Shown one piece after another: positions 24,913 through 25,085 of a DNA stretch of 52,388 bases. The stretch is from an uncultured Verrucomicrobia subdivision 3 bacterium. GTDB taxonomy: Bacteria > Verrucomicrobiota > Verrucomicrobiia > Limisphaerales > UBA8199. The stretch spans positions 1 through 52,388 of the forward strand of contig CAIWMU010000106.1 in assembly GCA_903913865.1 (NCBI GenBank). Direction: 5' to 3'. A model generated the notes under the pieces. It saw only the letters and a program-made list of their open reading frames with translations, searched no databases and was not told where the DNA came from. The translations under genes and the position numbers were made by a program. Numbering within the stretch: the stretch's first letter is position 1; each line of letters opens with the position of its first letter.

Positions 24913-24942
24913 TTGTCAATCCCGCCAGCCTCCCCGTATAGT
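24913..24942 (+). promoter_or_regulatory. pyrG promoter (sigma-70 type)
   Basis: TTGTCA (24913-24918), an 18-bp spacer, TATAGT (24937-24942). Five of six positions match in each hexamer. The first purines after it lie in CAACGGGC, so transcription would begin in the G-run at 24947-24949, giving a transcript starting near GGGC and a leader of about 138 nt. Confidence 0.72.
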
Positions 24943-24949
24943 CAACGGG

Positions 24950-25021
24950 CTTGCGGCGAAGTCGCATGCGCAAGGCCGCCAGTGGTTCGGTCATCGAACA
25001 GTTGGCGGCGTTTGCTTTTTT
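24950..25021 (+). terminator. Putative attenuator in the pyrG leader
   Basis: Hairpin 1 (24950-24974) pairs CTTGCG with CGCAAG. Hairpin 2 (24975-25009) pairs GCCGCCA with TGGCGGC and, inside it, GTTCG with CGAAC. It is followed by GTTTGC and a T6 run at 25016-25021, the form of an intrinsic terminator. It lies downstream of the pyrG promoter and 64 bp before the ATG, so transcripts must pass it. It could also end kdsB transcripts. Confidence 0.65.
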
Positions 25022-25085
25022 GGCTGGGACCCTGAATGAGGGCAGCCGGCTCCGCCGTTGATTCCGCAAACCTGACGTGGCTGAC

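Follow-up and report, generated by a model that had tools for sequence, protein, structure and literature searches.

The pyrimidine genes of E. coli are controlled at initiation or early termination of transcription, by start-site switching at pyrC and pyrD and by attenuation at pyrBI. For pyrG itself, a CTP-sensitive attenuator based on reiterative transcription is described in Bacillus subtilis (Meng, Turnbough and Switzer 2004, cited in PMC4448216). Control signals may also reside inside other genes: sigma54 promoters occur within nagB and yqeC of E. coli (PMC4591121), the recX promoter of M. tuberculosis lies within recA (PMC3062782), and PMC7815308 describes premature termination sites of E. 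coli both inside ORFs and in 5' UTRs.

An earlier note on the DNA studied here had placed a promoter, a GGGC, a first hairpin (hairpin 1) and an intrinsic terminator ahead of pyrG in the window (the whole stretch of DNA that was analysed, 52,388 nucleotides); all of them are present, and the stretch is conserved in relatives. Upstream lies a gene which we take to be kdsB, encoding CMP-KDO synthetase. The features of the locus, all on the forward (+) strand, are the following:

24106..24852, +, the presumed kdsB, an ORF with homologues in 55 of 58 genomes
24524..24632, +, the site within the window genome's own kdsB that corresponds to the cassette; promoter, stem and T-tract decayed
24904..25021, +, the whole cassette, a fossil of kdsB codons ~135-176 in which the presumed promoter of pyrG is followed by hairpin 1 and the terminator
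24913..24918, +, predicted -35 TTGTCA, invariant in 5/5 non-coding copies and in a 46-row alignment for which embedded copies were selected by pattern
24937..24942, +, predicted -10 TATAGT; TATATT or TATACT in relatives
24947..24950, +, GGGC, the region where transcription probably starts; relatives have GGC
24949..24969, +, hairpin 1, predicted by folding, immediately upstream of the terminator
24970..25015, +, terminator hairpin, with its core at 24975-25009 plus a lower extension
25016..25021, +, T6 tract of the terminator, from the sequence; embedded copies use T-rich codons there
25086..26699, +, pyrG (CTP synthase), the gene presumably controlled, an ORF with homologues in 53 of 58 genomes

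The promoter, TTGTCA-18-TATAGT, agrees with the consensus at 10 of 12 positions, and the 900-nt region holds two promoter-like sites against 0.2 expected in shuffles. The spacing from the -10 allows +1 at 24947 to 24949, so a start on the full G-run is possible, not certain; C-N-GGC is invariant in the five non-coding copies. The start of pyrG is the ATG at 25086, with an in-frame GTG at 25077, and in Rfam the leader matched no riboswitch or leader family, even at E up to 5. The terminator stem had previously been drawn as 7 bp plus 5 bp followed by T6, which is correct as far as it goes: above the 7 bp (24975-24981 with 25003-25009) stand 5 bp more, and the actual stem is larger and stronger owing to a lower extension that pairs GCAAG (24970-24974) with UUUGC (25011-25015), directly after which T6 comes. 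The stretch 24975-25027 folds at -24.5 kcal/mol (z -4.7; 0/200 shuffles as good), and a d'Aubenton-Carafa-type score of +16.6 ranks the hairpin as a full terminator, which a simple terminator scan missed, probably because of the internal loop. The idea that hairpin 1 (-13 kcal/mol, z -2.1, folding vs shuffles) might be a competing fold did not hold, as it co-folds with the terminator and does not exclude the core. Its role as an antiterminator of that core was rejected, the two folding side by side with only the outer pairs of hairpin 1 overlapping the lower extension, and folding of the leader revealed no antiterminator structure competing with the core; a factor may play that part. In other copies checked, a hairpin of differing sequence is predicted in the place of hairpin 1, and the upper stem and loop of the terminator vary freely between copies.

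Homology searches (tblastn and blastn) of loci taken from 58 genomes of the order Limisphaerales (Verrucomicrobiota subdivision 3) brought out an origin that the earlier note, right about an attenuator-like leader ahead of pyrG, had missed: what lies at 24904-25021 is a degenerate copy of the central part of kdsB (nt ~404-528). The leader is 77% identical over 118 nt to the kdsB of a relative (E=8e-19, blastn) and up to 91% identical over 56 nt to kdsB of other genera, and gave no reportable match to the window's own kdsB in the tblastn/blastn comparison. It is no longer coding, having acquired 1-nt indels. The block conserved between the window and the sister genome spans exactly 24904-25019 (86%), and in five non-coding cases from two families the homology stops at the same kdsB nucleotide (~519-530), which is the end of the T-tract. 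By these comparisons the descent of the predicted cassette from kdsB is established. In the window genome's own kdsB the corresponding codons read TTG TAT and TTC CCC TTC TTG, and a covariance model of the element gives this site 67 bits vs 81 bits for the leader copy (24913-25021). As to how the leader copy arose, the KdsB tree does not separate replacement of kdsB by transfer from tandem duplication. The gene order in 22866-26699 is apparently pgsA, pgpA, kdsB, pyrG, where pgsA and pgpA were identified by eye; CTP and CDP-lipid chemistry would connect the members of this cluster.

Within Limisphaerales kdsB usually sits directly upstream of pyrG; in most relatives it ends near pyrG or at most a few hundred bases away, and written in its codons are, in order, TTGTCA, 18 nt, TATATT or TATACT, 32 nt, GCCGCCA...TGGCGGC and TTTCCNTTTTTG. 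This intragenic promoter, on the same strand as pyrG and conserved beyond protein constraint, is found in 46 of 58 pyrG-adjacent kdsB vs 0.17 expected from synonymous resampling, and in 0 of 14 kdsB that stand apart from pyrG or have a leader copy, the adjacency and codon-bias counts using all kdsB with no pattern filter and related genomes among them not being independent. Taken singly, the -35 TTGTCA is present in 48 of the 58 unselected pyrG-adjacent genes, and the -10 TATA(T/C)T likewise in 48/58 vs 1/14 of the others. Synonymous bias in pyrG-adjacent kdsB reaches 0.61 bits inside the element vs 0.16 elsewhere (p 8e-9), and other kdsB show no excess (0.26 vs 0.25, p 0.21). The leucine at the -10 (segment codon 15) is encoded by CTA or TTA in 49/57 cases vs 4% elsewhere in kdsB, valine in the embedded segment by GTT in 50/56 vs 8% elsewhere, and the T-tract codons are biased to T; the start region reads CGGC in 37 of the 58 genes. 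The embedded hairpin is more stable than its synonymous shuffles (mean z -1.56, p 9e-11), the value for other kdsB being 0.06 (n=14). Comparison thus demonstrates selection acting on the putative promoter, stem and T-tract. Just 5' of the embedded -35 the codons GTA AAA GTC are preferred (GTA 23/55 vs 5% elsewhere), possibly as an A/T-rich upstream promoter part.

The embedded hairpin is located within kdsB, ~72 codons from the gene end, and in most copies it has a negative terminator score (median -16.6), with a U-tract broken by CCN. Embedded copies score as weak terminators because the phenylalanine-proline-phenylalanine codons break this tract, and, given the interruption and the negative score, the embedded form may pause transcription or terminate it only partly. 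Two of the five freed copies, the window's among them, score as full terminators.

Several lineages provide natural experiments, in which pyrG retained the cassette although kdsB had been relocated, disrupted or shortened (G000, G001, G002, G007, G008, G009 and G056). In the window, G001, G007 and G008 a non-coding copy stands ahead of pyrG and the kdsB site is decayed; in G001 (L260) kdsB is separated by ~1.8 kb, including a 510-aa ORF on the opposite strand, from the cassette, which remains at pyrG. In G002 an internal deletion and a broken frame have made the kdsB before pyrG a pseudogene with an intact element, and a second, divergent kdsB occurs elsewhere in that genome. In G009 the pyrG-side kdsB is truncated beyond residue 181-182, a short way downstream of the element, a full copy being present elsewhere, and in G056 the element alone is left before pyrG. 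Comparison of these loci demonstrates an association of the putative cassette with pyrG and, since in the pyrG tree the window's family mixes embedded and freed states and G056 falls elsewhere, more than one release is likely. A partial duplication of kdsB in G117 (L231) was only apparent, the locus containing a scaffold gap of Ns, and was left out.

The covariance model (R1) found matches in 55 of the 58 genomes, and at 90 bits or more in 118 when the search was widened to 255 Limisphaerales genomes; the genomes are for the most part assembled from metagenomes. With the underlying alignment picked by pattern, the scores are partly circular for embedded copies and describe distribution without being by themselves proof of selection. 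A dispersed repeat or a multi-gene regulon was rejected, strong matches in the 58 genomes being confined to kdsB or the pyrG leader. Among 65 further loci read, most have the element in kdsB before pyrG. Several pyrG-adjacent kdsB are without it, often on long branches (e.g., L041, L042, L045, L046, L050), and the kdsB of G009 (C286) and G102 retain parts or all of it with no pyrG seen nearby; in G102 (L213/L257), which may be an exception, the element is perfect and no pyrG follows in the 1.4 kb before the contig ends. G003, G005 and G054, at least 90% complete, gave no match to pyrG, for which gene loss, divergence or an assembly gap may account. Some pyrG leaders without kdsB (L031, L092, L094, also L096 and L117) carry unrelated terminator-like hairpins, with T-rich tails and an end at or near the start codon; an example is a promoter TTGCCC-17-TAAACT followed by GGCGGAYG...CRTCCGCC. 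These may represent convergent control of the pyrG leader.

The distance from the terminator to pyrG ranges from 65 nt (window) to 767 nt, and that from the -10 to the stem is constant at 31-32 nt. A stem fixed with respect to the promoter and variable with respect to pyrG would act at the level of transcription and not through the ribosome site of pyrG, and together with the selected T-tract the fixed distance makes a promoter-proximal attenuator for pyrG the best reading. We consider it probable, on the evidence of sequence, that the cassette is pyrG's own attenuator and that it arose inside the coding sequence of kdsB. Transcripts would start near GG(G)C and meet, ~25 nt downstream, the intrinsic terminator, where part of them would stop at the U-tract, and the fraction reading through would set the expression of pyrG. 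In the embedded form 3' ends are expected at TTTCCNTTTTT; mRNA from the kdsB promoter, covered by ribosomes, would escape the terminator, and an untranslated short transcript would not. Most Limisphaerales still carry the element in kdsB at synonymous positions; in the window lineage a separate copy just downstream of kdsB has lost coding sense and retains the predicted promoter, the hairpin and the U-tract, which have decayed at the matching site of the genuine kdsB. Pyrimidine (CTP) supply would be a natural guess for the signal that changes read-through. Only tentatively can the proposal be extended to a nucleotide-responsive CTP synthase attenuator, overprinted on kdsB codons across the order, sensing pyrimidines without G slippage and having more than once outlived its carrier gene.

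Other explanations have to be weighed against the attenuator. That the promoter gives the strongest signal, that the terminator of the embedded form is weak and that no antiterminator was found would be expected if only the promoter mattered and the hairpin were a 5' stabiliser or a constitutive damper devoid of regulation; we hold this to be unlikely, as a U-tract is superfluous in a stabiliser, yet selection acts on the T codons and the non-coding copies retain a T-rich tract. The spacing between promoter and terminator would also suit a short regulatory RNA of ~70 nt, of the ORF-internal type documented for E. coli (PMC7815308), with control of pyrG incidental. That the cassette remains at pyrG after kdsB has moved away or been disrupted, and degenerates in kdsB copies apart from pyrG, argues against such an RNA, as does the free variation of upper stem and loop, and we regard it as improbable.

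The earlier note had favoured a mechanism in the style of Bacillus subtilis pyrG, in which CTP-sensitive reiterative addition of G at GGGC yields a G-tract that blocks the terminator. The window and the sister genome do combine a GGGC start with a terminator, and a likely Streptococcus parallel is reported beside the Bacillus case (PMC4448216). Among the genomes read, GGGC is however restricted to G000 and G001, the window's genus, its relatives having GGC and kdsB mostly CGGC, and the usual -10 spacing puts +1 at the last G. The note itself had seen no obvious C/U-rich partner, and rightly so: no C/T run of at least four lies between 24947 and the U-tract in the window leader, leaving the terminator's own U-tract as the sole possible partner of a G-tract. 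Conservation in relatives, which the note had named as a refuting check, gives a divided answer, the hairpin being conserved and GGGC not. Slippage at this locus therefore appears very improbable, and of a CTP-sensing pyrG attenuator outside the Firmicutes what stands is a promoter-proximal element conserved across the order, hairpin included, without the GGGC on which G addition would depend. Lastly, a plain terminator of upstream kdsB can hardly be credited, for although the hairpin lies between kdsB and pyrG on the same strand, an invariant promoter just precedes it in all non-coding copies and in most relatives it is inside kdsB, well ahead of the gene end.

As an attenuator for pyrG, the cassette would be a rare clear case of a control element written into another gene's code and later freed, and a natural experiment in dual coding, where promoter and terminator share nucleotides with the codons of an enzyme and lineages relieved of the protein constraint show which bases regulation alone needs. 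It would physically link CTP synthesis (PyrG) with CTP use (KdsB), offers a testable system of pyrG control in a phylum with little regulatory work, and is a reminder that a regulatory role can be hidden in "pseudogene remnants" and in rare synonymous codons.

Literature searches returned no paper on a regulatory overlap of kdsB and pyrG, and none for Verrucomicrobia combined with CTP synthase and attenuation; as far as these searches went, a predicted promoter and terminator overprinted on codons order-wide and released as a gene fossil would be new. Like the pyrG attenuator of Bacillus subtilis, the locus has a pyrG leader in which a promoter and a G-start are followed by an intrinsic terminator; it differs in that the Verrucomicrobiota element derives from kdsB codons and has neither a conserved GGGC nor a C/U-rich antiterminator partner. 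Unlike E. coli pyrC/pyrD and pyrBI, it has no conserved CC/GG start switch and no conserved leader peptide. Like the premature termination sites of E. coli, it would place terminators within coding sequence or leader, its 3' ends being predicted; unlike them, it is paired with a promoter of its own and tied to one downstream gene. The intragenic promoters in nagB, yqeC and recA, several of which are conserved in relatives, resemble it in serving the next gene from the upstream coding sequence as is predicted here; in the present case, unlike in those, promoter and terminator both lie in codons, have persisted throughout an order and are found in certain lineages as a freed, non-coding fossil.
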